Positions 8,386 through 36,461 of a stretch of 38,608 nt of DNA are shown piece by piece (the stretch's first letter is position 1; each line of letters begins with the position of its first letter). Location of the stretch: positions 1 through 38,608 of IMG/VR virus record IMGVR_UViG_3300005663_000116; one strand, written 5' to 3'. The position numbers and the translations under genes are program-made. Source of the DNA: a virus. Below the pieces are notes generated by a model. The model was given only the letters and a program-made list of their open reading frames with translations. It was not told the DNA's origin and made no database searches.

Positions 8386-8616
8386 TTATAATAGCCACAT
8401 CTTGTCTGGGCCAACTGTTTCGAAATATTGTGACGTCTCACGACGGACGACTTTGGATTTCTTGGTCCGCTTTACGTAAATTGCTGCTGTTGCTGCAATT
8501 ATTATGCCTGTGATTGTCATGACTACTGCTATGTCAATTGCTATCAATGATCTATTCCGAATCAATTTACTCTGATGCAGTCCGTTGCGTGTCGTGCTTC
8601 TTAATTTGTATGCCAT
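8386..8616 (-). CDS. Single-pass membrane protein (76 aa)
   Basis: A basic N-terminus (MAYKLRSTTRNGLHQSKLIRNR) is followed by one hydrophobic segment (SLIAIDIAVVMTITGIIIAA) and a basic, then mixed tail (YVKRTKKSKVVRRETSQYF). This suits a small inner-membrane protein with one transmembrane helix. It is the first gene after the promoter at 8641-8668, with GAGG about 10 bases before the ATG. Early-expressed small membrane proteins of phages often alter host envelope functions; the role here is unknown. Confidence 0.65.
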   Translation of the reverse strand: MAYKLRSTTRNGLHQSKLIRNRSLIAIDIAVVMTITGIIIAATAAIYVKRTKKSKVVRRETSQYFETVGPDKMWLL

Positions 8617-11815: not shown

Positions 11816-14800
11816 CTAAACAGTTAATGATCCAGTTGCGCCGGACGACGCAGAGACGTTGCCAATAAACCCTGCTAAAATACCCGCCACACTTGACACT
11901 GCGTCGGACGACCCAACAAACAAAACTTCATTTATTCCTGGTGACGACGCAGACGACGTAGCAGACGCAGAACCCACAAAGGCTATCAAGTTACTGAGAC
12001 TACCAGTCGTGGTAGACACAGCGTTGGCCGCACCTGCAAGCGTCCGCTTAATTAAAATATCGTAGCCAAGCAACCAAGAATCGAAACCATCGCGAACAGC
12101 ATAAATTTCAAATCGCAATTGTTTTTGAAGTGCGCCGTTGTCTGAAATTTCAAACGCTTCAGTATACTCGTAAGCGGTCCCCGCTATTCCAGTAACAGTC
12201 CGAGCAAGAACGTCGTCTTCGTCATAAACCTTAATTGTATACGTAGTGCCTGCTTCTGGACCGTAGTCCGTTGCGTCAGTGTGCAGCACAATTGTTCCGA
12301 CTTGCGTCGCGTGTGTCCTGTCACGATGTGCCCATGTAATCTCAAAGCCCCCTGTAATCGCTGTAGATAGAAATGTTGGGTACGACTCAGTATTGAACTT
12401 CAAATTGCCCGGTGGATATGGTCTGATGAATCTACTATCAAGTAAATCTGCTGTTTGTGTTGACGCTGATGCTTCGAGGAGTTGCCCGTTACCCGTTCTT
12501 GGTAAAATCTTAAACGCGGGCTGGTCACCGTCTGTATATTCTGTTTCTATATTAACATACCCGTCGCCAATGAAATATACGAAATCGCCTAGCGCATGTG
12601 CCTCAGGCACTGTATCAAATACGCCCCGTTCTACTGTGACTTGATTGTTGTCTGTATCTACTGATACAACTTTTACCATTTCGTTACCAATCACCGCGTA
12701 GCTGTCGTCTAACACTGATGTTAACCCAAATGTATTTTCAATATCAATTGTTACGTTCTGTGCTTCTTTGAACATGCCCGTTGTCAATGTGGCGTTGAAC
12801 GCAAACGCAGCGACGCCTTCCGAATTAAACGGAAGCGACCCAGATTGCTGCATAAAAGTTTCAAAATCCAACGAATCAGAAGTGGGTGGCGCAACAGCGA
12901 GCAACAAAAATCCACTAGCATCGGGATAGTCTGCGTCAACAACACTTTGATTTTCGATGTCGTTTACAAGTATCCAATATGGTATTTCGATTATATCAAT
13001 ATTAGAGATATCAAGCGCATCGTTGACTGGGTCTGTCCACTCTGAATCTGGCGGATCGGCGTAAACCGTTTCAGCAGTTGAAAACGCATCCTCAATACAT
13101 GTCATATACACTTCTGTTTTTTGCAAGCTACCATAGTCTACATCTATGACCCGTACAATCATCTGAACAATACCTAATTCCGCCCAAGATAACTTAAACA
13201 CGTCATTTGGTTTCAAATGTGACATTTGTCTGGTGCACCTTAATCTTATTGACGCAAGCATTGACGACGCTAATTTCAACTCTCGTTCAGCAATCTTATT
13301 TGCCAAACTTGCATTACAAACGCTATAATGATTTAAGTTTTGTTCAATTATGTTGTTGTTCTGTTTTTCAATCAACGCAAGGTCTTGCGCCATCACGGGG
13401 CGCGGCTTATTCTCAATTTTGTCCCACCAATTTACAGTTACTTGGTTAATGACCTCGCCATACGAGGGCCTCGCAAATTCTTCGACAGCTATTATATGAT
13501 TTTCATCAAACGTTTCTGGTGCTACAGATAGTATCCTAAAAAATAAATCACTTCTGCTACTTGATGGTGTAGTCCAACTCGCACCAAAATCATCTGATTT
13601 TACATAGGTTCCTCCTGTGTACCCATAAGGCGGTCCAGACTCCGCAGTGTACGTCGAAATTTCAAAGTTTATTGACGTTGCCACGCCGGGCGTAGTAATG
13701 TAAAACAAAACCGCATACTGCGAACCGTCAGTCAAAACAATTTCTCGGTCTAGCGTAATAATAACCCACCCGAGAGTGTCTGTTAATAAATCGTCTACTG
13801 ATAGCATATCTGAACCTTCTACAGTTCCTGTTGCCAGCACATTACCGTTTGGCAATCCCGCTGTTGTACTTTGAATTTCTACTTGTACAGACACCGTATC
13901 GTCCGACCCGAGTTTCACAGATACTCTCTGTGTAGCAAACGTACTACTTGGCGTAAACGTTTGGCCTCTTTGCTGCTCTTCTGGGTCTACGCCTGCTTGA
14001 AATGATATTAATGTTGGATTGCCTGACGGTATAAGCCCGCCGTACGCCGTTGACTCGTCTATAACGGGCAAGTCCGGATCTCGTGTAAGTGACAGCACCC
14101 ACTTGCCTGTTGACAAATCCTGATACAGAAACCCTGCAATTGTCCTGAGTATGCTACCTATAAAATCTTCAATGGGCTCGGTCTGATCCCACAACAATGA
14201 TAGCCCGAACTCTTCATCAAAAAGAATATCCGCCGCAAGTTCAAAAGATGTTGAACCGATATCAGAAGTCTCAAACCCAAGGCCCCAATCATTATCAATC
14301 AAACATTCTCGTATAATGTGCGCCGCGTTAAGATCATCACCATCGTCTGTACCGCCCCTTATTACCGCTTTTGTAATATTCCATTGCGCGTCGCCATTGA
14401 CTTGTTTCAAAAGTCTGCGGCAGAAAAAAGCCCACGGCTTCGGGTACGGACTTGTACCTACATAGACTTGATTTAAGACAAAGCCCATTGACCCCCTAAA
14501 CGCAGGTAAATTCGCATCAAGTTTAGACACTAGATATGAATTCTGAGTTTGATCTGATGCTCCAAAAAGTAAATCTACACCACCTCTAACGCCACCTTCT
14601 TTTTGATTGCCACCAAAAAGATTTGATGAGCTTATTGTTATCGTATGGTTTGGTGCATTACCCTCTGCTAAATATATTTCAAACATAGCATCATAGGCGC
14701 CTCCCGCAGCTTCAACCCAAATGCCACCACTATTAAAGTATACTGAGCCCCCTGTGTAACTACCTGTTTGATTTAACCGCCAATGCACAGTAGACCCACT

Positions 14801-15301
14801 CGGTCTTATTACTATAGCATACTTTGTGCCCGTCGCTAAAAACACCTGACTATCAAATGCAAAACTCATCCACGTTCCGCCTGCTGTTGTTGGGATAGAC
14901 ACTGTGGTTATTGAGTTGCTTGTTGCGATAATATTGCTGTCATCTGGCTCACTATTAACATCTACGCCTTGTATATTTACGACTGTTGTACCAATAATGC
15001 CCGCGCCTCTAAGTAGTTTCAATTTAACTAATATTGCATAATACCCAGACCCAGAAACTGTGATTGTTTGCGCCGCCCAGAATACATTCGACGAACTAAC
15101 ATGCAAATCATCTCCAGATGTATAACTGTCTTTTATAATTAAATCGGGATGTAGCACTGCTGGAATCCATGCAACTTTCTCGCCGACGCGAATACGTTCA
15201 ACTGCGTCCATGTTCTTATGGCCAACGACCATGTGCATTCCTAGTGAATACTCGTGACCAACAGTAACTCTCTGCTTTTTCCTGCCGCCAAATAACCCCA
15301 T
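11816..15301 (-). CDS. Lambda J-like tail tip / receptor-contact protein
   Basis: The 1161-residue protein starts MGLFGGRKKQRVTVGHEYSL after CGAGGTAACTATG. The core INxAHIIRECLxDxxWGxG, FGLSLLWDQTEPIEDFIGSI, LYQDLSTGKWVLSLTRD is characteristic of the central tip proteins at the end of siphovirus and GTA tails. Two jelly-roll-like modules (about 55-213 and 430-590; signatures ATGTKYAIVI and LTDGSQYAVLF) interrupt the core and may bind surface glycans. The C-terminal ~70 residues are four copies of the 20-residue repeat (FVGSASATSSAS, FVGSSDAVSSVAG, FIGNVSASSGATGSL). It is the last gene of the tail operon. Confidence 0.85.
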   Translation of the reverse strand: MGLFGGRKKQRVTVGHEYSLGMHMVVGHKNMDAVERIRVGEKVAWIPAVLHPDLIIKDSYTSGDDLHVSSSNVFWAAQTITVSGSGYYAILVKLKLLRGAGIIGTTVVNIQGVDVNSEPDDSNIIATSNSITTVSIPTTAGGTWMSFAFDSQVFLATGTKYAIVIRPSGSTVHWRLNQTGSYTGGSVYFNSGGIWVEAAGGAYDAMFEIYLAEGNAPNHTITISSSNLFGGNQKEGGVRGGVDLLFGASDQTQNSYLVSKLDANLPAFRGSMGFVLNQVYVGTSPYPKPWAFFCRRLLKQVNGDAQWNITKAVIRGGTDDGDDLNAAHIIRECLIDNDWGLGFETSDIGSTSFELAADILFDEEFGLSLLWDQTEPIEDFIGSILRTIAGFLYQDLSTGKWVLSLTRDPDLPVIDESTAYGGLIPSGNPTLISFQAGVDPEEQQRGQTFTPSSTFATQRVSVKLGSDDTVSVQVEIQSTTAGLPNGNVLATGTVEGSDMLSVDDLLTDTLGWVIITLDREIVLTDGSQYAVLFYITTPGVATSINFEISTYTAESGPPYGYTGGTYVKSDDFGASWTTPSSSRSDLFFRILSVAPETFDENHIIAVEEFARPSYGEVINQVTVNWWDKIENKPRPVMAQDLALIEKQNNNIIEQNLNHYSVCNASLANKIAERELKLASSMLASIRLRCTRQMSHLKPNDVFKLSWAELGIVQMIVRVIDVDYGSLQKTEVYMTCIEDAFSTAETVYADPPDSEWTDPVNDALDISNIDIIEIPYWILVNDIENQSVVDADYPDASGFLLLAVAPPTSDSLDFETFMQQSGSLPFNSEGVAAFAFNATLTTGMFKEAQNVTIDIENTFGLTSVLDDSYAVIGNEMVKVVSVDTDNNQVTVERGVFDTVPEAHALGDFVYFIGDGYVNIETEYTDGDQPAFKILPRTGNGQLLEASASTQTADLLDSRFIRPYPPGNLKFNTESYPTFLSTAITGGFEITWAHRDRTHATQVGTIVLHTDATDYGPEAGTTYTIKVYDEDDVLARTVTGIAGTAYEYTEAFEISDNGALQKQLRFEIYAVRDGFDSWLLGYDILIKRTLAGAANAVSTTTGSLSNLIAFVGSASATSSASSPGINEVLFVGSSDAVSSVAGILAGFIGNVSASSGATGSLTV

Positions 15302-15824: not shown

Positions 15825-16706
15825 TCATAGTATCGCGTCACCTTCAAACGGGTTCTTATTTGGCAAATACGGGTACCCGCCGTAGTTTAATTCGTTTGCG
15901 AATTTGTTCCTGCACGTTGCTCTCGCCCAATCACAACCGGCTCTTGCAGTAAACGCATCACCAACTTCGAGTGACGCTACAGCGCGTGATACTCTAATCG
16001 TTGTACCCTCGTGAAAAACTATTTTCTGGTTCATCGAAAAATCGTTAGTTCTAAATGATCCGCCCAAGAACCATCCGTCAACTTCTGTCCCGAACTCCGT
16101 TGCAGTTATTGTTACACTGTCTACAGTAAGAACAGTCCCAGTGACAAAGAAATCTGTATCTGCTTTGAGTATACCACAACGAGTAGAATATAGCGCAAGA
16201 CCACACGTTCGCTGGTATTTCAACATTAGCCCAAGCCGCTTTATACTTACTGTTCTGAGCCCCGCAATGATACCCGCGCGCTTAGGATTAAACTTAACCG
16301 CCCGTACAAACCCGTCCCAATATGTAACAAAGTCCGTCGGTGAGTAGTTGTGACGCCTGTATATCGTAAGCTGTACGGGTCGCTCAATTGGTCCGTTCCT
16401 GAAATTAATTACGAACGAATTATTGATTGCTACTTCTAATTCTAACTGTGTCTTTAACGAGTTGGCATTAAGGTTAATATTACCACGTTTAATTAGTACA
16501 GCTTGATATGTTCTGCCGCTAAACAGGATGTCCGAATCACTACTTGTAAACGCCCAAAAGTTAGTATCTGCTTCGTTAAACAAATACAACTCTTCAGGGC
16601 CAGCGTTTGTCAAACTCCGCTCGTCACCCGTGTATCCCGAAATAGTTATCTTAGCCAGCGCTGTTGAGACGCCACTGATTATGCCAGCTATGCTAACTGT
16701 TGCCAT
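15825..16706 (-). CDS. Tail hub protein, DUF2163/phage BR0599 type
   Basis: The 293-residue protein has the DUF2163-type N-terminal half (ELYLFNEADTNFWAFTSSDSD, PVQLTIYRRHN, YWDGFVRAVKF) and a C-terminal BR0599-type end (GCDWARATCRNKFANELNYG, GYPYLPNKNPF). Relatives are the GTA baseplate hub and lambda gpL-type minor tail proteins. Cysteines in QRTCGLALYSTRCGI and GCDWARATC are at the positions that coordinate an iron-sulphur cluster in such proteins; cluster binding here is inferred. The RBS is CGAGGATAAACAATG, preceded by a 7-base tandem repeat. Confidence 0.82.
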   Translation of the reverse strand: MATVSIAGIISGVSTALAKITISGYTGDERSLTNAGPEELYLFNEADTNFWAFTSSDSDILFSGRTYQAVLIKRGNINLNANSLKTQLELEVAINNSFVINFRNGPIERPVQLTIYRRHNYSPTDFVTYWDGFVRAVKFNPKRAGIIAGLRTVSIKRLGLMLKYQRTCGLALYSTRCGILKADTDFFVTGTVLTVDSVTITATEFGTEVDGWFLGGSFRTNDFSMNQKIVFHEGTTIRVSRAVASLEVGDAFTARAGCDWARATCRNKFANELNYGGYPYLPNKNPFEGDAIL

Positions 16707-16783
16707 TGTTTATCCTCGTATACTGTACAGTGATATGTTTTGTTATTTGTTTCGTGTTGTTAGTTTTGTTTGTGTGTTGTATT

Positions 16784-16832
16784 GTGTTTTGTGTTTTGTG
16801 TTTTGTGTTTTGTGTTTTGTGTTTTGTGTTTA
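16784..16832 (-). repeat. 7-base tandem repeat (GTGTTTT) x7
   Basis: About seven units follow directly on the stop of the 16830 gene and lie in the leader of the hub gene. The minus strand reads AAAACAC repeats, without G, so the mRNA would be unstructured. The flanking sequence to 16745 is of the same simple composition. Confidence 0.75.
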
Positions 16833-18590
16833 TGCAGTGACGGGCTGTTTGTCAATCATAAACGGACAAGTTATATTGACCTGAAAATTATCTCCAATAC
16901 GGCCCGTATTGTTAATACGCGGAATACCAAAAGTTATTCTGCCCAAGTTTATGGCACGAAACGCAGTGGTTATCGTATCCGAGTTTTCGAGAAGAGCACC
17001 TATGCCCGTGCCGAGTGCGTCTTGTGACCTAATACTAAAATTACCTACAACGCGAAATGATGACGTTGTCCCCAACTCATGCTGATTTGCTACGCCAAAA
17101 TCAACGCTGGCCAAATACCAAACGTCGTCGGCGGGAGTTGTACGAGGATCATTATCAAAACGCACGACGAAACTATTGGTGTCTGCGATGCCCTGAAAGT
17201 AGCTCGTTATTTGATTCGCCGTGCGTTCATAAAATCCTATCGTTCGTTGTGCTACGCTGAGTTGCCCTGCCGTGGACGACGTGGCTACAACAGACCCACC
17301 CAATACGCCCGCTAAAGCCCCAACAGTACCAGAACTTGCGGTCACAACACCAACTAAATTTTTAGTTGCCAATAGAGAACCCCCTACACTTGATGCTGCT
17401 GTAATAGTTGCAGCAAATTGTGTTGTGACTAATAGGGGGGGGGTACTTACATTTGATACGCTAAGTGCAGAGCCATTTAATTGTATAGTAAACGATAAAG
17501 ATGCAATGACACTAGAATTTACAGCCACTGAACTAACTAGCGATGTCATGACTGACAAGACCGCGATGCCCCTAGAATTTGCAATCACTAAGCCATCTAG
17601 CTGTGTAGCGATGGACAAAGACGCGACTGCACTTGAAGTTGCAAATACTGAACCAGTTAACGGAGCAACAAATTCACTCGCGCCAATATCCCACGTTCCA
17701 GTGATCGTAGCTCGCGTTGCACCCTTGTCGATTGAAACATTAATTTCTGGGTATGTGATCACACTGAGTGTTGCGCCTTCGTCTATTAAATCTGCACCTG
17801 CCTTGAGCAGTAAATCCGTGTCAGCAAATGTTGTTGTAGCATTTACAAATTGATCAGCAGTTACAAGATTTGCTATGCCATTTGCACCTTCGTCATCGCC
17901 CGTGCCGTCGGAAGTTCCATTGTAATCAAGTGTACCCGTAGTATCTTTTAGATCCCCCTGTAAATTATCAAATGCAGCGTTATTCGTAATGACATAATCC
18001 GCGTCCCCAATACGTATTCCTCCAAAAGCAGCATGGTCAAGACTGTTACATTTGTAAATGGTGTTTTGAAGAATGTTACCACCATCAGCGGAAAAACCAT
18101 GTATCCCGTCGATACCGAAGCCGTAAACTAAGTTACGATAAACATTCGCTATAGATGCTATGTCCATACCGAAGTCAAAAGAATTATTAGCGTGGTTGTT
18201 ATGGACTATGTTGTGGCGAACTTGATTATTGCCAGCTTGGAATATTAATATACCATTTCTATCATTAGCTCCAGGACCTTTTACTTCGAGCCATGAGACT
18301 TCAACACGTTCATCATTCATGAATACAACATGATTAAGCCCAGAAACCTCTATCCGTGCATTACCAGCAGCACTCACTTCATGTGCTCTGCCGTCATGTT
18401 CAGCACCTGACCGTGCCGTTAAATGTGGATATTCAGATGCAGTATATACTACACCACTAAATGTTACGTTTGTAAAAACCTCAGCCTTACACTCACCCTG
18501 ATGGAAATGGGCATTATCCAGAGCATCTTCCCACGCCTGGATAGTAGTGTATGTTTCGCTTGTGCCAAGTGTCTCTAGGGCGTTCGGCAT
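16830..18590 (-). CDS. Beta-helix protein fused to repeats and a tail-terminator-like domain
   Basis: Three parts are visible in 586 residues. Residues ~1-308 are a right-handed beta-helix with NxI/NxV ladders (NNQVRHNIVHNNHA, NVYRNLVYGFGIDGIHG, NILQNTIYKC, YVITNNAAF) and the closing motif WDIGASEF. Residues 311-447 are seven ~20-residue repeats (LTGSVFATSSAVASLSIATQ type). Residues ~452-582 match the tail terminator at 32092-32556 (TNSFVVRFDNDPRTTPADDVW against TNSYVVRYDNDPRDTPTDDVW). It is probably a tail-attached receptor or glycan-binding protein, with the terminator fold as anchor; this is inferred. The ATG lies 12 bases after GGAG. Confidence 0.8.
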   Translation of the reverse strand: MPNALETLGTSETYTTIQAWEDALDNAHFHQGECKAEVFTNVTFSGVVYTASEYPHLTARSGAEHDGRAHEVSAAGNARIEVSGLNHVVFMNDERVEVSWLEVKGPGANDRNGILIFQAGNNQVRHNIVHNNHANNSFDFGMDIASIANVYRNLVYGFGIDGIHGFSADGGNILQNTIYKCNSLDHAAFGGIRIGDADYVITNNAAFDNLQGDLKDTTGTLDYNGTSDGTGDDEGANGIANLVTADQFVNATTTFADTDLLLKAGADLIDEGATLSVITYPEINVSIDKGATRATITGTWDIGASEFVAPLTGSVFATSSAVASLSIATQLDGLVIANSRGIAVLSVMTSLVSSVAVNSSVIASLSFTIQLNGSALSVSNVSTPPLLVTTQFAATITAASSVGGSLLATKNLVGVVTASSGTVGALAGVLGGSVVATSSTAGQLSVAQRTIGFYERTANQITSYFQGIADTNSFVVRFDNDPRTTPADDVWYLASVDFGVANQHELGTTSSFRVVGNFSIRSQDALGTGIGALLENSDTITTAFRAINLGRITFGIPRINNTGRIGDNFQVNITCPFMIDKQPVTA

Positions 18591-18597
18591 TAGTTAA

Positions 18598-19323
18598 TCA
18601 ACTCCACTGCTTTCGCATCGTTATATCTGGGCGGGCTACTTTAATTTGTAATACAGGTTTATCAAATCGTGGCTGTACAATTTTTTGCCGGTCAGCAATA
18701 TCCGTCAACGTACCTCCCGACAAACCAATTTCCGTTTTGTATTCGACCTGCTTTTTCCATACGACTGCAAAGTTTACCGCCGAGTCACGAACTTCACCCC
18801 CAGCCAAGTCCGGCAACACTTCACCAGTATCCTCGTCCCGTTCTTCTACTCCTTGCCACGACTCTACTTCATCGTTGCTTGCGTCTTCATTCACAATAAT
18901 GAAATATCGCTTGCGTTCTTCTTCAGACCACAACCACGTATCATGAACCCGAACATCAGCTTCAGGAGCGAACGGCAAATCTTTCAGAACTCCAATAGGC
19001 TCAATCAACTCTTTCCACACAACCTGCGGATACAACTTGTCCATGAGAAGACGACCGATTTTGTATTGCTTAGTCGGTCGATCATATCCGAGCCAAGCCT
19101 CTCGAAGTTGTGAAGTCCACGCATCACAAAGTCTCTGCCAACCAGGGATATTCCTAAAGTTGTCTCGTTTCTTTGGGGACACCAGATCACAGCATATCTC
19201 AAGCCACTTGCGGCGGATGAGTGAGTCGCTACAGCAGACAATCGTAGACCCCACTGGACGCCAAGCGAGATACTTGGCCTTCTGTAATTTGCGTTCAGTT
19301 GTCCTTAATGCAATTTCACTCAT
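18598..19323 (-). CDS. Hypothetical tail-region protein (241 aa)
   Basis: It starts MSEIALRTTERKLQKAKYLA with GGAG about 10 bases upstream. The protein is mixed, with Trp-rich segments (VHDTWLWSEEERKRYFIIVN) and an acidic loop (EERDEDTGEVLPDLAGGE). I recognise no family. It sits between the distal-tail-like protein and the beta-helix protein, so it is likely a tail-tip or fibre-associated component. Confidence 0.65.
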   Translation of the reverse strand: MSEIALRTTERKLQKAKYLAWRPVGSTIVCCSDSLIRRKWLEICCDLVSPKKRDNFRNIPGWQRLCDAWTSQLREAWLGYDRPTKQYKIGRLLMDKLYPQVVWKELIEPIGVLKDLPFAPEADVRVHDTWLWSEEERKRYFIIVNEDASNDEVESWQGVEERDEDTGEVLPDLAGGEVRDSAVNFAVVWKKQVEYKTEIGLSGGTLTDIADRQKIVQPRFDKPVLQIKVARPDITMRKQWS

Positions 19324-19344
19324 ACTGTTTTCAACTCCGGCTTA

Positions 19345-20895
19345 TTAAGGAACTCTCATAAAGTTAGTTGCGCATTGATTGTAATGCGAACGAAGCCATT
19401 GTATCTCAACTTTGTCCGATGAAAGGCGGCACTTATCAACGAAGCAAATTTTGCAGTCGCCCGCTGAAACTGCTGCTGCCAAGTCAAGATTAACATCAAA
19501 GTCAATACGCTCTTGATCTGGGCCTAGTTCTGCGATACCTGTAATCTTTCGGACAATCAAGACGTTCGTCACTGGGAAGTAAAACCCAACGTATGTCCGA
19601 AGATCATTTAGCCCCATGTTTTTCGCAAGTAGTATATTCTCAATAGTCACAGAAGTATCTGCTGGGTCAATGTCAATACTACTTACTTGTGCCAAGTCAT
19701 CTCGGAACGTCGGGATGAGAACCGTTTTCTGTCGCCCATCAAGAGAGTACAAAAACTGCCGAAATTCCCACGCTTCTTGTTTTGTGTCATTGTAAAATAT
19801 ATGGCTTTGCGATAAAAAGTTAAATAAGCTGTCACTTACTACACTGAATACACCTGTACCATAATCCAGAGTTATCGAATCCGCGTCGCTCGACTCAAGA
19901 TGTACGCCTTCCATAAACGCCGGAACGACGAGTAGGTTTAACGAATCATAATCTGCTGCCTGCGTATACCCTGCTATATCAGTATTGTCAGTAACTGCAA
20001 ACACTGCGTCAACAAAAGCGACGGGAGAGCTGAATTTAGACTTCTGATTACGGGATACCATGTACGCTGTACGCACCGGCATAATAAGCTTAGTTCCTGT
20101 ATACGAATTCTGGACTGAATAATTTGGGTCCAACGTCAATAACGAATCTGTTACTGACAATATTGCTACAAATTCATACTCTGTTTCAGATTTCCAAATT
20201 AGTGCTTTGTTATTCGCTCTATAGTCTGCGAACGTCGTATCAACGGTAATCATTGTATCGTGCATATCTATATTCGTAGTATGCTCGATGAACTCTGACC
20301 ATACAGGAATAAGCCAAGTTTCTTTTTGGCGTGAGAACAACATAGCCTCGTATTGACTGTTCTTCTTATCCGTGTCAAAGAACAATCGTAACTTAAAAAA
20401 CTGACGTGGTGATTGGCGTGACTTGATACGTTGTTCAGTTCCATTAAACGCTTTTAAGATACTTGTTTTCCACTCAAGCGTCTCCAAAATCCCGTCGTGT
20501 GGTCTCCACTGAATCCCTGTTGCACCGAATCCGGGAATTACAGCCATCCGCGCCGTCATAGTAGACACAGCGTCAACTTGACCAACAAGACCCGGTTGCA
20601 CGTTAAGCGTAACACCAACAAGGCCAGATATCGCGGTAGCTGACCCTTCAAGCTGCGTTATGACTGACAATGATCCAGTGACACTCGACACCGCAGTAAT
20701 CATACTGCGACTCTTCGTTGCAACGCTTAAAACTGCTGACGCTGTAGCAACGCCGTTCGATACACCAGCAAGTTGTGTAGCGACGGACAACGTGCTACTT
20801 GCGCTGCTCGCCGTGGTGACGCTGCCGACTAGATTAACCCAGCTTGCACCTTGGTCGCCGTATTGAGTTGAACCTAGTTGGAATGATCCGAGCAT
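19345..20895 (-). CDS. Distal-tail-like baseplate protein with N-terminal 20-residue repeats
   Basis: Residues 21-122 are five 20-residue repeats (e.g. TAVSSVTGSLSVITQLEGSA). The remaining ~390 residues resemble phage distal tail proteins: LEWKTSILKAFNGTEQRIKS, RQSPRQFFKLRLFF, then TWLIPVWSEF, with duplicated beta segments and the ending KVEIQWLRSHYNQCATNFMRVP-type strand pair. This family joins tail tube and baseplate. The repeats are an extra module also found in four other virion proteins here. A 13-base tandem repeat lies in the leader upstream of the ATG. Confidence 0.7.
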   Translation of the reverse strand: MLGSFQLGSTQYGDQGASWVNLVGSVTTASSASSTLSVATQLAGVSNGVATASAVLSVATKSRSMITAVSSVTGSLSVITQLEGSATAISGLVGVTLNVQPGLVGQVDAVSTMTARMAVIPGFGATGIQWRPHDGILETLEWKTSILKAFNGTEQRIKSRQSPRQFFKLRLFFDTDKKNSQYEAMLFSRQKETWLIPVWSEFIEHTTNIDMHDTMITVDTTFADYRANNKALIWKSETEYEFVAILSVTDSLLTLDPNYSVQNSYTGTKLIMPVRTAYMVSRNQKSKFSSPVAFVDAVFAVTDNTDIAGYTQAADYDSLNLLVVPAFMEGVHLESSDADSITLDYGTGVFSVVSDSLFNFLSQSHIFYNDTKQEAWEFRQFLYSLDGRQKTVLIPTFRDDLAQVSSIDIDPADTSVTIENILLAKNMGLNDLRTYVGFYFPVTNVLIVRKITGIAELGPDQERIDFDVNLDLAAAVSAGDCKICFVDKCRLSSDKVEIQWLRSHYNQCATNFMRVP

Positions 20896-20937: not shown

Positions 20938-21054
20938 TTTGTCTTTGGTGCTTATCTTTGGTGCTTGTCTTTGGTGCTTATCTTTGGTGCTTATCTTTGG
21001 TGCTTATCTTTGGTGCTTATCTTTGGTGCTTATCTTTGGTGCTTATCTTTGAGT
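20938..21054 (-). repeat. 13-base tandem repeat (CTTATCTTTGGTG), about 8 units
   Basis: Seven complete units plus partial ones at each end; one unit has CTTG for CTTA. The minus strand reads CACCAAAGATAAG repeats. It fills most of the leader of the distal-tail-like gene and contains no gene. Confidence 0.8.
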
Positions 21055-24186: not shown

Positions 24187-25482
24187 TTAGCTGGCGAACG
24201 CGGTCACATCGTTGATGGTCACTGGTTTGGGCCTGCGTTTCCAGTAGTGGCACCGTGTTATGTGGCTGCCGCTTTTCTTTTCGAGTTTGAAAATACCACG
24301 AAGATGCTTGCGTTGGTGAATCCACTCTTCGTCCCGCCCTGCGTCATGGACGATAATATTGTCAGACACTTGAGATGCGATTCTCATTGCTGCGTCTCTG
24401 CCTATTCCGCCTTTTTGTCTTTCTTTTGGTCCATCTACGAAGACCAGGTCAAATTTCTCTGCGTGCCAGTTATCACCTTCAAGCAACTCGGGTGCATTAA
24501 TGCCATCCCAAAGACGAATCTCTAAATCGTTTTGACCCCCTGCGTCCTTTACTTTTGATTCAATGACTTCTTTGTACTCTGGGCTCGTCTCGTAAGAAAT
24601 TACTTTGCACGTTTCTGATAAAAGCAACGACGAAAGTCCGACGCCGAATTCTAGCACCTTCGGTTCTGATAACTGTCCCGGAACTCGCCTCGGCATGTAC
24701 TGCTGGATAAACGCCCAGTCGCGTTGAGTAATTGAGTATTCGCCCCAGGGCATATTGTACTTTGAATTTGAGTGATCAAAGTAATCAATCGTGTCCCACG
24801 CTGTCATGTCTGAAAAACCAATTTGTTTGAAGTGCTCACAGCGACGGTGCGTTGTTGTGTACACTTTATACCCTGCGTCAGTCGCTCTGCGACAAAATGC
24901 AAAATCTGTACCGTATTTCTGTACGCCGTCCTCGTCAAACTCTGAATGAAAAGGTTGCTTGATGCTCTCCAAAACTTCACGCTTGACCAATATACAGCCC
25001 GTGCCAACGACTGCAACTTCAAGAACGTCGAACATATCGTCGATCGAGTCTAAGTCAACCGCTGAATATCCTTCGCCCGCTGTATGCGGAACATACGCAG
25101 TCCAATTCAGCATCTGACCTGCGCTGCGTACTAATGCGGGCGACGCAACGACGTCACGGTCTATAAACACCATTTCACATGGGTTGTGCAGCGGCACTAC
25201 GTCGTCATCTATCATCAAAAGATGCGTGCAGTCAGTTTCAAGAAACCGCTTCACGATCATACAACGATTGCTTGATATCGGATTTGCCCAAGTTCTTCCG
25301 GGGTTCTCCCAAACAAGCTCTACGCCCTTCGTTCGTTGCATGGCAGGAATAACTGTGCTGCTCATCTCCCGCCGTAATTCGCCATTATTTAGGAGTGCGA
25401 AATATACTTTGTATTTCTCGTTTGTTGGTGCCACTCCGTCTTGGGCTGTATTGCTTGGCTTTGTTTGTTCTGCTGCGTTCAT
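24187..25482 (-). CDS. Glycosyltransferase-methyltransferase fusion
   Basis: Residues ~25-225 are a GT-A type glycosyltransferase: SNRCMIVKRFLETDCTHLLM then IDDDVVP (DxD metal/sugar-nucleotide site, 91-97), VVGTGCILVKREV (158-170) and THRRCEHFKQIG (211-222). Residues ~273-400 are a Rossmann methyltransferase-like domain: KVLEFGVGLSS (SAM motif I, 275-285), ISYETSPEY (acidic ribose-binding Glu, 295-303) and FDLVFVDGP (344-352). A strong RBS (GAGGAGAAAAATATG) precedes it. Located among fibre genes, it may glycosylate and methylate virion proteins, or modify host surface sugars; the substrate is unknown. Confidence 0.8.
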   Translation of the reverse strand: MNAAEQTKPSNTAQDGVAPTNEKYKVYFALLNNGELRREMSSTVIPAMQRTKGVELVWENPGRTWANPISSNRCMIVKRFLETDCTHLLMIDDDVVPLHNPCEMVFIDRDVVASPALVRSAGQMLNWTAYVPHTAGEGYSAVDLDSIDDMFDVLEVAVVGTGCILVKREVLESIKQPFHSEFDEDGVQKYGTDFAFCRRATDAGYKVYTTTHRRCEHFKQIGFSDMTAWDTIDYFDHSNSKYNMPWGEYSITQRDWAFIQQYMPRRVPGQLSEPKVLEFGVGLSSLLLSETCKVISYETSPEYKEVIESKVKDAGGQNDLEIRLWDGINAPELLEGDNWHAEKFDLVFVDGPKERQKGGIGRDAAMRIASQVSDNIIVHDAGRDEEWIHQRKHLRGIFKLEKKSGSHITRCHYWKRRPKPVTINDVTAFAS

Positions 25483-26150: not shown

Positions 26151-26960
26151 CTAAATCTCTGTCGGCAGCCTGGCCTCTAATCTTGCTAATTGCCTCTTTG
26201 TTTGTGCAATGCACATTTTGAGTATTGATTTGTCACTGTGCTTCTTACCATAAAACGGATTCTTCTCACCAGTTACATCAGTAGACTCGCTCATCTTTAC
26301 TAATGATTCCGCATTATGCTTCTTACCATAGAACGAATTCTTTTTGCCAATTTTGGATTCACTTTTCTTTACCCGTGTCTCTTCAGAATCTACTCTACCC
26401 TTATTAGCGTTGCTAATTCTCTGCTTAGTAACATCAGTATGTTTCTTGCCATAAAATGAATTACCTTCGCCCCGCATTCTCTCGCTGTGTGCTTCTCGTA
26501 AGTCTGCTCGCTTTGACGGGTGCATGTCACCAAGCGCTTTCATAGAATCGCTTAGCTTAGTACGATTCTCCGGATTAGTAAAATACGCTTTTCTTGCGGC
26601 ACTCTGCTTAGCTCGCATACCCTCTTTGTTTGGATTGTTTGTAAACGTATCACAACCTTCGCCACCGCGAGTAAGATTATAACCATTTGGATGTATCGAA
26701 TCAAAATTACGAATCTCTTCAATCTCGATTCGATTGGCGTCATCGTGGGAATAACAAACATGCAATGGCGTTACTTCCCATTCATCATACTTATTGAACG
26801 CTCGATGAATTAAGCTTTTATGCTCTTTTACTAAATGCTCCTTCATTCTACGCTTTAAGTCTATGGTTTGACCAATGTAACACTTATCAGATTCAGGGAA
26901 GTAAATCCTGTAAATATGTACAACTTCTCTTGTATGCAGCCTTTCTTCTCTACCATTCAT
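26151..26960 (-). CDS. GIY-YIG homing endonuclease with NUMOD3 repeats
   Basis: Residues ~14-100 are a GIY-YIG nuclease domain (HIYRIYFPESDKCYIGQT, LKRRMKEHL, IEIEEIRNF, NGYNLTRGGEG). The catalytic Tyr, Arg, Glu and Asn equivalents are visible, but GIY reads HIY. The C-terminal half has three NUMOD3-type DNA-binding units (NSFYGKKHTDVTKQRIS, NSFYGKKHNAESLVKMSE, NPFYGKKHSDKSILKM). It is a free-standing mobile gene between tape measure and fibre genes and would cut relatives lacking it. The RBS is AAGGGCGATGCAATG. It is paralogous to the copy at 32558. Confidence 0.88.
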   Translation of the reverse strand: MNGREERLHTREVVHIYRIYFPESDKCYIGQTIDLKRRMKEHLVKEHKSLIHRAFNKYDEWEVTPLHVCYSHDDANRIEIEEIRNFDSIHPNGYNLTRGGEGCDTFTNNPNKEGMRAKQSAARKAYFTNPENRTKLSDSMKALGDMHPSKRADLREAHSERMRGEGNSFYGKKHTDVTKQRISNANKGRVDSEETRVKKSESKIGKKNSFYGKKHNAESLVKMSESTDVTGEKNPFYGKKHSDKSILKMCIAQTKRQLARLEARLPTEI

Positions 26961-30208: not shown

Positions 30209-31432
30209 TTACTCTGGGATGATAGTCAATGCACCTGTCACAGTTGCTGTGGCTTGTGCAATACCCTGCAAGTTAGACATGATTGGGAACCTGGCGATGC
30301 GAATTGTAGTGCTTTCAGTCGCTGATAATTTGGCACTATACCCAAAGTCACCAATTACGTCTGTGTTTATACCGCCCGCTGATCGTGTACCAGTAGTAAC
30401 CACTACTGCTAGTAGCTCAATCACATACCCACTACCCTGCGAGTCTTGAACAGCAACCGCAATAGACGTATCTTGATGCGCCAGAAACTTATTGTATAAC
30501 GCAACCGTCTCAAAGTATACTGAAAAAGTACCAGTTATTTCTACCGTGCCCGTACCAACACTTACGACGCCCAGCGTTCCAACTTGCATCCTTGTCCGCA
30601 ATTTATTAGTCAACGATATCGCTAAACTGATAATTCCTTGCTCACTATAATTCTCCATGAAATTAGGGACGTGATTTGCCCCAGTCATTACTGCTGTAGT
30701 CCCAACTGCGTCATATCCAGTACCCGCTGAAGATGTCAGTGACGTTTCTTCTGAGCCCATAAACCCGAACGTCCCCGTAATAATACCATCAACGGGAATA
30801 TCTAAATTCAACATATTAATGCTCTGGCCAAGAAACAATGAAAGAATATTGGACAAATCCTGGTAGTCTCTTTCAATATTATAAGAAACTAGCGTCGTGC
30901 CATTTATTATCTGACCACCCATCTGTACTGTCACTGGATCACCAACAACCTCAGTGACCATTGTACCATTAACAAAAATAAGTTTAGCAGACGTTGCAGA
31001 CAAGATTTTCTTAAACCCATTATTAGCTGCTGTTGTGAACCCAGATACGAGAACCCACTGATTTGCAGTAAAACTACCAAAGCCACTGGCAGAATCACTC
31101 AATGAATTGTCACTCGATGCTGCGCTCATTGTAATCGCGGCGCTTATTTTAACCTCAGACGACCAACCGGACGACAAAAGAGCGGCCTGAAGAAAATCGT
31201 CATAAGTACCATAGCTCAATTCAAATGCAATATTCCCGCTGGTGCTGACACCAATTCGAGGGATATCACTAATCTGTCGATCAGCTCGCATTTCCTCACT
31301 TATAGTCGTAGCTTTGTCGTGGACAAGTGACTCGTTATTAAGCCTCAGAATCTGAAGATTTGATCCTGTTTCCTGCGCGCCGAAAGTTGACTCTTGAACG
31401 TAACTGACTTGTACTCTATTGGCGTCACCCAT
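30209..31432 (-). CDS. Major tail tube protein
   Basis: The 407-residue protein (MGDANRVQVSYVQESTFGAQ, TSGNIAFELSYGTYDDFLQA, VSYNIERDYQDLSNILSLFL, IPVDGIITGTFGFMG) has the features of siphovirus tail tube proteins of the larger type, with an internal insertion around residues 100-170. The last 20 residues (LQGIAQATATVTGALTIIPE) are a single copy of the repeat found in other virion proteins here. A good RBS (AAAGGAGCAACCTAAATG) and the position before the chaperones agree. It should be one of the most abundant proteins. Confidence 0.85.
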   Translation of the reverse strand: MGDANRVQVSYVQESTFGAQETGSNLQILRLNNESLVHDKATTISEEMRADRQISDIPRIGVSTSGNIAFELSYGTYDDFLQAALLSSGWSSEVKISAAITMSAASSDNSLSDSASGFGSFTANQWVLVSGFTTAANNGFKKILSATSAKLIFVNGTMVTEVVGDPVTVQMGGQIINGTTLVSYNIERDYQDLSNILSLFLGQSINMLNLDIPVDGIITGTFGFMGSEETSLTSSAGTGYDAVGTTAVMTGANHVPNFMENYSEQGIISLAISLTNKLRTRMQVGTLGVVSVGTGTVEITGTFSVYFETVALYNKFLAHQDTSIAVAVQDSQGSGYVIELLAVVVTTGTRSAGGINTDVIGDFGYSAKLSATESTTIRIARFPIMSNLQGIAQATATVTGALTIIPE

Positions 31433-31459: not shown

Positions 31460-31511
31460 GTGTTATCATTGGTGTTGGTATTATCGTTGGTGTTTGTATT
31501 ATCGTTGATAT
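31460..31511 (-). repeat. 18-base imperfect tandem repeat x3
   Basis: Units of the type GTATTATCGTTGGTGTTT occur three times, in the leader of the tail tube gene. The minus strand is A/C-rich. No gene is seen here. Confidence 0.65.
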
Positions 31512-31512
31512 A

Positions 31513-32001
31513 TTACGCTATACCATTAATGAATAGCTGAACTGTTGGGACGAGTGATACAGCACTAACAGACCCCGCCAGATTCTTATTAGTAACAGTT
31601 ATTGCACCCGATACTGTAGACACCGCAGCGACAGTGCCCGATACTCTGTATACATACACCAATATGCCAGACGCGCCACCGACAGCTGCCGCAGCCGCTT
31701 GCAAGTCTTTAGCTATGTTTATGCCACCACTCGCTGACCCAATCGCTGCTGACATGCCGCTGTCTCGTGTAGATAGCATGTCGCCAGATACATTAGCAAC
31801 AGCCGCTACGCTGCCAACGAAATCATGGAGTACTGATATGCCACCCAGCGCGCCCGATACACCAATCGCAGCTGACGCGTCACCAGAAAACCATAAATTC
31901 CCACCATTTTGTAAGTATGTTGATTGCTGTTTGAGTGCTCGCAAAATATCTTGGAGTACGCTGAGTAGCTCTTCGTGGTGTAAATTAACTCTGTCTGGCA
32001 T
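31513..32001 (-). CDS. Repeat protein made mostly of the 20-residue module
   Basis: After an N-terminal helix (NLHHEELLSVLQDILRALKQ) the 162-residue protein is almost entirely repeats of about 20 residues (FVGSVAAVANVSGDMLSTRD, VSGTVAAVSTVSGAITVTNK, NLAGSVSAVS...). It sits between tail terminator and tail tube, so it may be a decoration or fibre-like protein of the tail or neck. The AAAGG Shine-Dalgarno is about 12 bases from the ATG, which is long. Confidence 0.65.
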   Translation of the reverse strand: MPDRVNLHHEELLSVLQDILRALKQQSTYLQNGGNLWFSGDASAAIGVSGALGGISVLHDFVGSVAAVANVSGDMLSTRDSGMSAAIGSASGGINIAKDLQAAAAAVGGASGILVYVYRVSGTVAAVSTVSGAITVTNKNLAGSVSAVSLVPTVQLFINGIA

Positions 32002-32091: not shown

Positions 32092-32556
32092 TTAGCTGGT
32101 AAAATCGTATTGAAACGGTATTGTAACGTCTACTTGATATTGGTCGCCACCACCTGCGTTGGCTGCTTGATTACTATTGATCTGACGACCACTGCGGTTA
32201 TTGCTTATGTTGTCACTCGTCCTGCCGCGTTTAGAAATCATCGCGGTTCGGAATAAAACGTCAGTAATTTTCGTGTTGCTAAACTGAGCTTCAATAAGAT
32301 CAGATATTGCGAGAACTTGATAAATGCCTTTACCTATATTATCGGTAATCGTAACACGCAACACTCCTGTTGTTCTGTATTTGCTTGTAGCAAAATCACG
32401 AGACTCCGTTGTGTCAAACTCTACAGATACTTCAAGCCAAACATCGTCCGTAGGCGTGTCTCGCGGATCATTGTCGTAGCGAACTACGTAGCTGTTCGTA
32501 TTAGCGAAGTCTTGAAACGCTGTTGTTATTGTGTTTGTTAGCGTTGCGTATCCCAT
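32092..32556 (-). CDS. Tail terminator protein (DUF4128-like)
   Basis: The 154-residue protein (MGYATLTNTITTAFQDFANT, NSYVVRYDNDPRDTPTDDVW, then EVSVEF and TGVLRVTITDNIGKG) has the N-terminal helix and strand pattern of the gpU-like tail terminators that cap the tube and bind the connector. A paralogous domain forms the C-terminus of the 16830-18590 protein. The ATG lies 1 base after the stop of the homing endonuclease and has no clear Shine-Dalgarno; an in-frame TTG (32565) inside that gene is the alternative. Translation probably depends on ribosomes finishing the endonuclease. Confidence 0.75.
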   Translation of the reverse strand: MGYATLTNTITTAFQDFANTNSYVVRYDNDPRDTPTDDVWLEVSVEFDTTESRDFATSKYRTTGVLRVTITDNIGKGIYQVLAISDLIEAQFSNTKITDVLFRTAMISKRGRTSDNISNNRSGRQINSNQAANAGGGDQYQVDVTIPFQYDFTS

Positions 32557-32557
32557 C

Positions 32558-33400
32558 TTATACAATCAAATCCGGTAGCGAGTCTGTGTCTATTCCTTCT
32601 TGTTCCAATTTTGCAATTAGCCTGTCAAGTTTATTCTTCACTCGCCTATACTGCGTCACTGGGCTTCTTGCTGACTCGCTCATTTTCTTTTTAGTTTCAT
32701 CAGATAGTTTCCACCTGTGTCCTTGGGCGTTCTGATTGCCCTTGCGGGCTTCTGACATATTCTTTTTGCCTTCGTCGCTGACAGTCCAGTGCTTGCCCGT
32801 CATTGTCTTGCTTTGTTTTGCTTTCTGCTCTTCTGATTTCGGTTTGCCTTTGTTGCCACAACCCGACTTGTTGCCCATGTTTGCGTCACTTATTCTTTTC
32901 TTAGTTTCGTCTGTGTGTTTGAGCCCTTTGGCGTTTTGATTTCCTTTGCGTGCCTCTGCCATGTTCTTTCTGCCTTCAGCACTAACAATCCACCCGTGCC
33001 GTTTATGGCCGAGCATTTTCTTGCTATGCTCTGGACGCTTCCGCCCTCGAAGACAATCACCTATCTTCTTCCTGTGTTCATCTGAGAATGTCTTGCCTAA
33101 CCAATAATTCATGCCTTCTCCACCAGGTGCTAAGTTATACCCGTTTGGTGGCATAGAATTGCAGCAACTAATTTCTCCTACTTCTAACTTACTGGCCTCG
33201 TCTCGCGAGTTGCAAGTGTGCAGAACTAATATCTCCCAGTCATCGTACTTTTGAAGTGCATAATAAACTGCACTCTTAAACTTGCCCTGCAAGTGCTGCC
33301 GCATCCTACGATCCAAGTCACTTGTTTGCCCAATGTAGCACTTGCCGGATTCTGGAAAATACACTTTGTAGACAACTACAATTTCATCCTTTTCGTACAT
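32558..33400 (-). CDS. GIY-YIG homing endonuclease with NUMOD3 repeats
   Basis: The N-terminal GIY-YIG domain (VVYKVYFPESGKCYIGQT, LDRRMRQHL, LEVGEISCCNSMPPNGYNL) is closely related to the 26151 copy. The C-terminal ~170 residues hold many NUMOD3-like units (GKTFSDEHRKKIGDCLRG, GLKHTDETKKRISDANMG, GKPKSEEQKAKQSKTMTG). The ATG is preceded by CAGGTATTTGACATG inside the 3' end of the gp10-like gene. It ends SLPDLIV, similar to the C-terminal peptide of three other proteins. It is inserted between head-tail joining genes. Confidence 0.88.
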   Translation of the reverse strand: MYEKDEIVVVYKVYFPESGKCYIGQTSDLDRRMRQHLQGKFKSAVYYALQKYDDWEILVLHTCNSRDEASKLEVGEISCCNSMPPNGYNLAPGGEGMNYWLGKTFSDEHRKKIGDCLRGRKRPEHSKKMLGHKRHGWIVSAEGRKNMAEARKGNQNAKGLKHTDETKKRISDANMGNKSGCGNKGKPKSEEQKAKQSKTMTGKHWTVSDEGKKNMSEARKGNQNAQGHRWKLSDETKKKMSESARSPVTQYRRVKNKLDRLIAKLEQEGIDTDSLPDLIV

Positions 33401-33401
33401 G

Positions 33402-33800
33402 TCAAATACCTGAAATCCACATTGCAAGTTCTGTTAACGAAATTTCTACCATGCCTTCTGGATGCTGTGGGCTTCGTTTATCGTGTTCTAGGTAACTTAT
33501 ATAGGATAAATTATTCGAGATGTGTACAAGAGAGAACGGCGGAATGTCACTGATCTTTGCGATTTCTTTTAGAATCGTGCCGTCGCCTGACTTGTCAACT
33601 ACTTCTAAAGTCCCCTGCGCCGGGCCACCAAGTTCAATTTGCCAGTTGCCCCTCGCTCTGCCTGTATCAACAGGCGTACGCAAGACGATACGCTTAAATA
33701 ATTCTGCAATAACACGTTGATGAAACTTTTTGAGGTCACTTTTTATTTTCATCTCGGCGGCGGTGAGTTCCGCGTTGAATTTTGCTAAGTTTGTTGGCAT
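33402..33800 (-). CDS. HK97 gp10-like tail completion protein
   Basis: The sequence has the family signature IVLRTPVDTGRARGNWQIEL near residues 38-57, and ends with a Tyr-rich segment (NNLSYISYLEHDKRSPQHPE) also typical. Such proteins join the tail end to the head connector. ATG at 33800 (MPTNLAKFN) or GTG at 33809 may be the start; neither has a strong Shine-Dalgarno. The length of about 132 residues fits the family. Confidence 0.85.
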   Translation of the reverse strand: MPTNLAKFNAELTAAEMKIKSDLKKFHQRVIAELFKRIVLRTPVDTGRARGNWQIELGGPAQGTLEVVDKSGDGTILKEIAKISDIPPFSLVHISNNLSYISYLEHDKRSPQHPEGMVEISLTELAMWISGI

Positions 33801-34463: not shown

Positions 34464-35549
34464 CTAAATGATTAGGTCATTAAAGTCGTCGGTCGTGAGT
34501 TGCTCGGCTTCAGCTGCAAGTTGCAGTGACTTGTCGTCAACTATTCTTTGCCATTTGCTGGCGTCTTGTTTTCCTTCGTTGTACGTTGCAATGCTACGCT
34601 GCTGCCGAAGCTCGTTACTCGGGCAACGTTTGTACATAAACTCTTCAAACGACATATTCTTAAATATGCCCGGCTGATTGGCCCACGCACCTAAGTCAGT
34701 ATAGAAGCCGGACTCATCCGAGTCCCAACAAGAAATATCCCGCATCAAGTATGGCAGAACTTGGTTTGCTTTGCACCAGTTCACCCTGTAGCAAACGCTA
34801 TTGACTATGTCCATCTCGGGGTGGCAATAGATAAAGAACTTGCACGCCCAGTTTGACGTGCTGTGCTTTTTAAGAATCCCAAGTTTATTTACTATTATAT
34901 CCTCATCAGAAACGTTGTCAAATGCAAAGATGTACGACCCAATATAATCAGCTTGTGACAATAACCTAGCATTCTCATCAGTTACAAGCCGGATATCTAG
35001 GCCCTGATTAAACTGAAACCTAATCTTGTGCGCCACAAGTCTTTGTAAAATCTCGTCTGCTTGTGGGTGGCATAAGAAGTTATTATCCAAAAACTTTACT
35101 TGCTTGTGCTGTACGATCTTCTCTACAGACTCATCGAGGTGTATGTTTCCCTCTTTCTGTCTAACGATACAAAATTCACAGTTGCGAAAACAACCGCGGG
35201 TCAAAAACCCATACGACGTATCCGCGTTTGGATAGATTGAATAATCCGATTTCCACGCGATGACTTCGTCAGGGAGCTTCTTAGTTATCGAGTACGCAGA
35301 CCCACCATATTCTATGCAGTTGCAATTGGTTACTTTAAGGTGGTTTGGTGTCGAAAAGAATATAGCTGATACGAACACTTTATCATATCCTACTGCGTTA
35401 ACTACTACGTCTTTGCGTTTGTGCGGATAGTAGGAAATATTGCACTTAACAATATCAACTTGCTTGTAGTACGCAGCCAGCTTCATCAACGCGATGTTCG
35501 GGATTGTTGAGTCTGCATCGACTAATAGGATTTTATTTTGACTCTGCAT
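34464..35549 (-). CDS. Radical SAM enzyme ending DDFNDLII
   Basis: The 361-residue protein has the cluster motif GCFRNCEFCIVRQKEG (CxxxCxxC) around residue 122, for a [4Fe-4S] cluster and S-adenosylmethionine. It is preceded by a Rossmann-like N-terminal region (KILLVDADSTIPNIALMKLA) like that of B12-binding-domain radical SAM proteins, then KVKFLDNNFLCHPQADEILQ and RFQFNQGLDIRLVTDENARL of the barrel. The substrate is unknown. It lies among head-tail joining genes. The ATG at 35549 has no clear Shine-Dalgarno. The C-terminal peptide matches the proteins at 7117 and 36177. Confidence 0.82.
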   Translation of the reverse strand: MQSQNKILLVDADSTIPNIALMKLAAYYKQVDIVKCNISYYPHKRKDVVVNAVGYDKVFVSAIFFSTPNHLKVTNCNCIEYGGSAYSITKKLPDEVIAWKSDYSIYPNADTSYGFLTRGCFRNCEFCIVRQKEGNIHLDESVEKIVQHKQVKFLDNNFLCHPQADEILQRLVAHKIRFQFNQGLDIRLVTDENARLLSQADYIGSYIFAFDNVSDEDIIVNKLGILKKHSTSNWACKFFIYCHPEMDIVNSVCYRVNWCKANQVLPYLMRDISCWDSDESGFYTDLGAWANQPGIFKNMSFEEFMYKRCPSNELRQQRSIATYNEGKQDASKWQRIVDDKSLQLAAEAEQLTTDDFNDLII

Positions 35550-35583
35550 TGCGTTTGCTGCTTTGTGCTGTTTCGTGTGTCGT

Positions 35584-36123
35584 TTAAGCCCGTTCGACTT
35601 CAACAGTAAGCGGCTCGGAACCGTCTGCATCGCCGATGACAAACGGAGCGACAAGCAAATCAACGACGGTATACGTTTTGTCGGGTGACTCACCGTGAAC
35701 GTACTCGCGTTTCTCAGTGATCGGCCCGATTGTGTCTTCTGTCTTCTTAACCTGTGCTTCATTCTGCTGGTCACTGACTAGCGTGTCGCCGTCAACGTCT
35801 TGCAACGCCAGATACGCACACGCTTCAAGCACTCGTTGCGGAATCGTATCACTTGCAATTAATAACTCGTCTTCGTCATACGTTTGAACACGGGGCCATT
35901 GTAACGCCTGAGTTGATACTGTTTTATATCCTTCCCAGATATAATTATAATTCAAGTATCTCGTCGCTTGACGAAGAGCATTCTCTTTTACTGCTGTTGT
36001 TGCGCCAGACCATGACGACGGATCGTCATAATTTTCAGTGATCTGGTCAGCATCCGCGACAGACATTAGGGAGTTGGCAGTGCTTAATCCTGTCCCGTCT
36101 TCTACTATAAATGTTGTTGCCAT
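35584..36123 (-). CDS. Head-tail adaptor (DnaT-like ssDNA-binding family)
   Basis: The start MATTFIVEDGTGLSTANSLM SVADADQI, then KENALRQATRYLNYNYIWEG and ALQWPR, matches phage adaptor proteins often named DnaT-like ssDNA-binding protein. They form the first connector ring under the portal. The length of 179 residues is normal. AGGGAGTAGAAATG is a good RBS; a 7-base tandem repeat lies just upstream. Confidence 0.82.
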   Translation of the reverse strand: MATTFIVEDGTGLSTANSLMSVADADQITENYDDPSSWSGATTAVKENALRQATRYLNYNYIWEGYKTVSTQALQWPRVQTYDEDELLIASDTIPQRVLEACAYLALQDVDGDTLVSDQQNEAQVKKTEDTIGPITEKREYVHGESPDKTYTVVDLLVAPFVIGDADGSEPLTVEVERA

Positions 36124-36143
36124 TTCTACTCCCTATACTCGTT

Positions 36144-36178
36144 ATGTGCTATGTGCTATGTGCTATGTGCTATGTACT
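36144..36178 (-). repeat. 7-base tandem repeat (ATGTGCT) x5
   Basis: Five units, the last ATGTACT, overlap the stop codon of the 36177 gene and fill the leader of the adaptor gene. Confidence 0.75.
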
Positions 36179-36461
36179 ATATGATGATGTCGTTTAAGCT
36201 TTGATTGCCGTCTGTGGATTTGTCTTTAACTTCAGCAGCATTCGCTTCATGTATCGCATTAATATCTGAATCTGCTGTTGCTTCTCTGTCTATCAGCAAC
36301 TGCTTGTCTTCAGTTTTAGTCTGCTCGCCACCGGACGTTTTTCCCACGTTGCTGGCGAGTTTCCATCCTCGATTTGTATAGAATATAACTTCATCAGCAT
36401 TGACTTTTACAATCTTACCGTCGTTAGGTCTAACTACTGCTACTGTTGCTATCCACACCAT
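36177..36461 (-). CDS. Small head-region protein (94 aa) ending SLNDIII
   Basis: The start MVWIATVAVVRPNDGKIVKV follows AAGGAGACAGACATG; the longer frame upstream is only the tandem repeat read as NNKQQTT units. The N-terminal half (IVKVNADEVIFYTNRGWKLA) is a small beta unit, the rest is charged and probably disordered, and the C-terminus (NQSLNDIII) resembles that of the radical SAM and 7117 proteins. Its position between coat and adaptor genes suggests a capsid accessory or decoration protein. Confidence 0.65.
   Translation of the reverse strand: MVWIATVAVVRPNDGKIVKVNADEVIFYTNRGWKLASNVGKTSGGEQTKTEDKQLLIDREATADSDINAIHEANAAEVKDKSTDGNQSLNDIII

Follow-up and report, generated by a model that had tools for sequence, protein, structure and literature searches.

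A tail-terminator-like domain at the C-terminal end of a putative phage adhesin encoded in the tail-tip gene region

Described systems and layout of the locus

Phages reuse the tail-tube fold in many rings. Tail terminators (PF13554, phrog_179; T1, lambda gpU, T5 p142, RcGTA) form hexameric rings which end the growth of the tube and attach to the head, and are encoded by a short separate gene between the neck and tube genes. The described fibres closest to the protein reported here are built from a ring, a stalk and an exchangeable head. The neck passage structure (NPS) proteins of the lactococcal 936 and TP901-1 phages join a conserved, virion-bound BppU-like ring domain to a stalk and to exchangeable heads, which bind carbohydrates or are beta-helices (PMC6669499), and evolved Dit proteins with carbohydrate-binding modules are mentioned in the same paper. 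Terminators with extra domains have been reported from myophages and from PVC16, in which the terminator fold is duplicated within one protein (PMC11784142).

The window analysed here, a stretch of 38,608 nucleotides from the IMG/VR viral record IMGVR_UViG_3300005663_000116, has on its minus strand the structural module of a tailed phage, the products of which include a P22-like coat protein, neck proteins, a free terminator, a tail tube (30209-31432), a tape measure, a Dit-like protein, a hub and a megatron-like tip protein. One gene of this module encodes a fusion protein which ends in a second terminator-like domain. The features concerned are as follows.

11816..15301, minus strand: large GTA megatron-like protein of the tail tip (phrog_1101), three repeats at its C-terminal end
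15825..16706, minus strand: baseplate hub protein, the next gene downstream of the fusion gene (phrog_778; BR0599 and PhiJL001 gp84 N-terminal families)
16736..16831, no strand assigned: intergenic tandem array of 7-bp units which runs up to the fusion gene's stop codon (counterpart at 8444-8501 in the nearest relative, L003)
16830..18590, minus strand: fusion gene, an ORF of 586 aa with N-terminal head, seven repeats and C-terminal terminator-like domain
16833..17234, minus strand: tail-terminator-like domain, residues 453-586, putative virion anchor (sequence match and AlphaFold2 fold)
17244..17660, minus strand: stalk of seven repeats of ~20 aa, residues 311-449 (PSSM; beta-rich in the AlphaFold2 model)
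17661..18590, minus strand: N-terminal head, residues 1-310, probable right-handed beta-helix (PF13229 and TIGR03804, both below cut-off)
18598..19323, minus strand: 241-aa ORF directly upstream of the fusion gene, within a region which has no match in the nearest relative
19345..20895, minus strand: Dit-like protein (phrog_1082), N-terminal repeats at residues 22-101, no head domain recognised
31513..32001, minus strand: small protein with ~20-aa repeats, between the terminator and tube genes (repeat search)
32092..32556, minus strand: free tail terminator, 154 aa (PF13554 at 1e-8, over the cut-off; phrog_179 at 1e-15)

The fusion ORF contains no internal stops and no N bases, and a GGAG motif lies just 5' of its ATG. 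The initial annotation described the part ahead of the terminator-like domain as a beta-helix with seven repeats; the repeats are borne out, whereas the beta-helix can only be called probable. Residues 94-210 of the head (17961-18311) match PF13229 (E 3.7e-5) at 23.8 bits, just under Pfam's cut-off of 25.9, with a further sub-threshold match to TIGR03804 (0.016). Besides these beta-helix models no Pfam family matched the N-terminus, and no relatives of the head were found in viral_contigs or among PDB sequences. When AlphaFold2 was run on the full-length fusion (pLDDT 49.7) the head, being without relatives, was not modelled.

The repeats of the stalk (residues 311-330, 331-350, 351-370, 371-391, 392-411, 412-429 and 430-449) are 18-21 residues long. 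Six of the seven exceed a PSSM threshold which shuffled copies of the fusion protein reach 0.02 times on average, and the fourth is degenerate. The AlphaFold2 model shows the stalk as beta-rich at low confidence (pLDDT about 45-64) and not like a coiled coil. At least four proteins of the phage (encoded at 31513-32001, 19345-20895, 11816-15301 and 16830-18590) share the ~20-aa repeat above shuffled expectation. The repeat is therefore not special to the fusion gene, and is a stalk module common to different virion proteins. In relatives, a counterpart of the 31513-32001 protein is also encoded just before the tube gene, and similar repeats are visible by eye in L025 at the N-terminal end of the hub.

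The fusion protein is comparable to the NPS proteins in its apparent combination of a conserved virion-bound domain, a stalk and exchangeable carbohydrate-binding or beta-helix heads. However, the NPS anchor is an N-terminal BppU-like beta-sandwich followed by a coiled-coil stalk, whereas the putative anchor of the fusion is its C-terminal terminator-like domain and its stalk consists of ~20-aa repeats which are predicted to be beta-rich. Evolved Dit proteins, and the LamG-repeat-Dit fusions found in two relatives of the phage (L023 and L027), likewise place a head on a ring-forming tail protein, and one LamG head is common to both kinds of fusion; there the anchor is Dit, here it would be a terminator paralogue. 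The fusion chain holds no Dit core, which is found in the separate ORF 19345-20895, and the fusion ORF was absent among the strong matches of a profile built from the Dit-like core. The domain resembles the tail terminators in fold, length and conserved residues but, unlike them, lies within a 586-aa protein encoded in the Dit/hub region, fused behind a stalk and a head, in a phage which also has a normal free terminator. The PVC16 and myophage proteins also join the terminator fold to added domains, but these are working terminators with sheath-linked additions, not second copies with adhesin heads. Evolved Dit and neck-passage proteins already show the design principle of ring, stalk and exchangeable head; what differs here would be a terminator in the place of the anchor. 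The initial annotation named no described case of such a fusion, and text searches of an open-access library likewise brought up no description of a second or fused terminator.

The terminator-like domain and its free counterpart

It had been claimed that the last ~130 residues of the fusion match the separate terminator at 32092, and this was confirmed. Residues 454-580 are 35% identical to the free terminator (32092-32556; E 5e-25), and in a protein profile scan the fused domain matched phrog_179 'tail terminator' at 1.4e-10. The resemblance is therefore far beyond chance, and the chance likeness of a short motif was rejected. The 134-aa domain does not reach the PF13554 profile in the window or in L003, and that of L010, a contig of another lineage, matches PF13554 below the cut-off.

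Structure prediction had been set beforehand as a test of this assignment, and a different fold was not seen. The AlphaFold2 model of the fused domain, run with six related sequences, has a mean pLDDT of 80.5 and a pTM of 0.75, and the predicted structure is a terminator fold with two helices and a four-stranded sheet. Nearly all of its best matches in the PDB are tail terminators or tail caps, the best being the T1 terminator (Z 15.1, rmsd 2.0 over 124 residues), with further Z scores of 14.8 for the FCWL1 head-to-tail interface, 12.6 for RcGTA, 11.7 for T5 p142 and 11.1 for lambda gpU; the SaPI1 neck protein is also among the best fold matches. The best two Foldseek matches in the PDB have E values of 2e-5 and 6e-5. 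Among predicted viral proteins, the best named fold matches include PhiJL001 Gp77 and annotated tail terminators. A terminator profile gave no match among PDB sequences, so that at this distance the relation shows by fold only. No match was obtained by tblastn against 50,697 phage records, whether the query was the free terminator, its fused counterpart, the complete fusion or that of L010, and nothing was found in genome_contigs with the terminator and hub alignments. In BFVD, a DUF1566 protein from an uncultured phage (A0A6J7WP33, 404 aa) matches the terminator fold over 145 columns. It is possibly another fusion of a head to a terminator, and terminator domains may thus have been fused elsewhere too.

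The free terminator gene occupies the canonical slot between the neck protein and the tail tube. Its start is most likely the ATG at 32556 and not the TTG at 32565, since the protein of a relative begins MGYVELTNT. The free protein carries a 23-residue insertion which is missing from the fused domain. This loop was rejected as a divider between free and fused forms, as the free terminator of L010 also lacks it. The window contains two free-standing GIY-YIG/NUMOD3 homing endonuclease genes (32558-33427 and 26151-26960), one of which is inserted exactly between the neck protein and the free terminator.

Recurrence, age and exchange of heads

The same fusion, accompanied by a separate free terminator, was found in independent contigs, giving three lineages and four contigs in all. 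In a phrog_179 search of 21 records, many of which, outside these four contigs, are fragments, only the four contigs (window included) gave matches, each with two copies, one free and one ending an ORF of 345-999 aa. The fused domain of the nearest relative, L003 (IMGVR_UViG_3300037245_000851), is 88% identical to that of the window and follows about eight repeats and a short N-terminus without a beta-helix, which amounts to almost no head. The free terminator of L003 (8507-8968) is encoded directly after the fusion gene, between it and the hub gene, and no terminator was found in the neck region of this contig. The remaining two contigs, L009 (IMGVR_UViG_3300035211_000076) and L010 (3300042731_004594), come from two different metagenomes and are identical at 12,821 of 12,822 bases over the compared stretch. 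In both, the neck region encodes a free terminator, and the fusion, 999 aa long, is composed of an N-terminal LamG lectin (PF13385, 5.5e-9), many repeats and the same C-terminal domain. A single terminator copy is present in each of the isolated phages NP1 and R6L, the tail tips of which are related, and in a 75.9-kb relative record (L057/G033). Open frames beside terminators in other records, such as one of 699 aa in phage R6L, do not count as fusions; in R6L the annotated gene is 441 bp.

In a tree of the six domains, fused and free forms fall apart (SH-aLRT 91, ultrafast bootstrap 89, standard bootstrap 89), and identity between the two groups is 33-40%. The fused domain is thus a paralogue of the phage's own terminator, in agreement with the duplication that was initially suggested. 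Between the window and L003, omega amounts to 0.066 for the fused domain, the other values being 0.088 (free terminator), 0.061 (tube) and 0.037 (hub). The fused domain is thus under purifying selection and is maintained, and the duplication is older than the lineages; a recent duplication was rejected on account of the low identity and the old clades. Twenty-five positions do not vary among the six domains, among them those of VRxDxDxRxTP, which follows closely on helix 1, and five positions (16, 47, 49, 63 and 104) separate fused from free forms.

The putative anchor domain is constant while the head varies, being a probable beta-helix in the window, almost absent in L003 and a LamG lectin in two contigs. 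The DNA match between the window and L003 at 16770-17280 (83%) stops at about the start of the domain, and window positions 17280-19346, which cover the head, the repeats and the upstream ORF, have no DNA match in L003. A 7-bp array is located in L003 at the same place as the array at 16736-16831. A head related to the LamG head of the L010 fusion (37% identity over 226 residues, E 5.6e-37) occurs in L023, where it is attached, together with repeats, to the Dit-like core and not to a terminator domain. The N-terminal extensions of Dit-like proteins reach about 700 residues in relatives; that of the window and L003 comprises only 139 residues, with repeats and no recognised head. The terminator-like domain thus fills the place in the chain which is otherwise taken by the Dit core, namely the C-terminal end of a head-stalk protein.

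The placement of the fusion in the tail-tip gene region, as first annotated, was also upheld, its gene being located between the Dit-like and hub genes. We infer from gene order and sequence features that the phrog_1082 protein is Dit-like. Of 18 close relatives in which no fusion was detected, 17 have the hub gene directly next to the Dit gene, and the exception (L047) has a single 242-aa ORF between the two. In the window and L003 this position holds an insert of 2.6-3.9 kb with the fusion gene. In L010 it directly adjoins Dit, on the opposite flank; the fusion gene is close to the Dit gene in all fusion lineages.

Possible role of the fused domain

We consider it likely that the fusion protein is an accessory adhesin or polysaccharide-binding virion fibre of which the C-terminal terminator copy is the anchor. 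The duplicated and diverged terminator would form, or contribute to, a hexameric ring docked on a ring of the tail, and the heads would be held outward from the N-termini of the docked domains. The phage would then meet host polysaccharide before or while the tail tip engages its receptor. Reuse of the terminator as an anchor had been proposed in the initial annotation, and this role is supported because heads are exchanged while the domain stays and one LamG head sits elsewhere on a Dit-like protein. The Dit/hub gene context favours the tail tip as the site of the protein, a place at the neck, next to or inside the true terminator ring, being less likely. However, the free terminator of L003 is itself encoded in the tail-tip region, which makes gene position a weak guide. 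It can be suggested only tentatively that a second terminator ring beside Dit, at the opposite tail end, has the sole task of mounting exchangeable adhesin heads, one fold capping the tail at the top and carrying fibres below.

In T5 the terminator interface involves both termini, helix 2, strands 1 and 3 and the loop 22-29, while the tube contact of p142 is a loop at 63-67 (PMC11784142). By offset alone, the invariant VRxDxDxRxTP overlaps the T5 interface loop, and the group-specific positions 47 and 49 fall in the loop between strands 1 and 2, at about the place of the T5 p142 tube contact. An invariant interface loop with a changed strand 1-2 loop would fit a conserved ring with a changed partner, which is only suggestive. 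Some further points run against an anchored adhesin. The fusion is carried by only three lineages; the near absence of a head in L003 means that the head is not strictly required; and, as the N-terminus of the T5 protein is in the subunit interface, an N-terminal fusion might hinder ring closure. If the domain does act as an anchor, the terminator joins the ring proteins which are used as fibre mounts. The system shows the same kind of head and stalk on different virion proteins, and the fused domain bears on the way in which copies of ring proteins come to occupy new sites on the particle.

In a variant of the anchor model which differs in the site, and which is possible though in our view unlikely, fused subunits are built into the ordinary terminator ring where head and tail join, either mixed with free subunits or replacing them, and display their heads at the neck. 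Neck-passage proteins with beta-helix heads have been reported from the neck of 936 phages (PMC6669499), and fused and free domains, at 33-40% identity, keep 25 invariant residues and differ consistently at only five. Such an arrangement is difficult to reconcile with the position of the fusion gene in the Dit/hub region in all lineages, with the separate clades of fused and free domains, which give no sign of concerted evolution, and with the group difference at positions 47 and 49, roughly at the T5 p142 tube contact.

In other phages, the beta-helix spikes often have C-terminal trimerisation or chaperone domains, and such a part in trimerisation or folding is conceivable for a C-terminal domain behind a beta-helix here too. 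That it is solely such a module of a tail-spike-like protein, with no anchoring function, is improbable: terminator-specific residues are kept under strong selection, and the domain is also found on a LamG lectin and, in L003, on a stalk with hardly any head. Moreover, known terminators are hexameric rings (PMC11784142), and the same LamG head is elsewhere joined to a Dit-like protein instead. It is hardly credible that the fusion is an artefact of assembly or the decaying product of a recombination, for although the repeats and intergenic tandem arrays could mislead assembly, the artefact is refuted by independent contigs from other metagenomes, in which the same fusion with its junction IGFYER is kept, and the frame is free of stops and N bases with an omega of 0.066.

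Further short tandem arrays are found in the window at 20942-21051, 31463-31507, 36143-36180 and 36479-36544. Each array has its own unit (7-18 bp), most are located in gaps between structural genes, and the arrays are possible recombination points or leader sequences. A radical-SAM-like ORF (34464-35774; PF04055, below the cut-off) lies within the neck gene region. The gene at 24187-25482, which is also present in the tail module of relatives, encodes a glycosyltransferase-like half and an O-methyltransferase-like half, and its product might modify the Ser/Thr-rich repeats.
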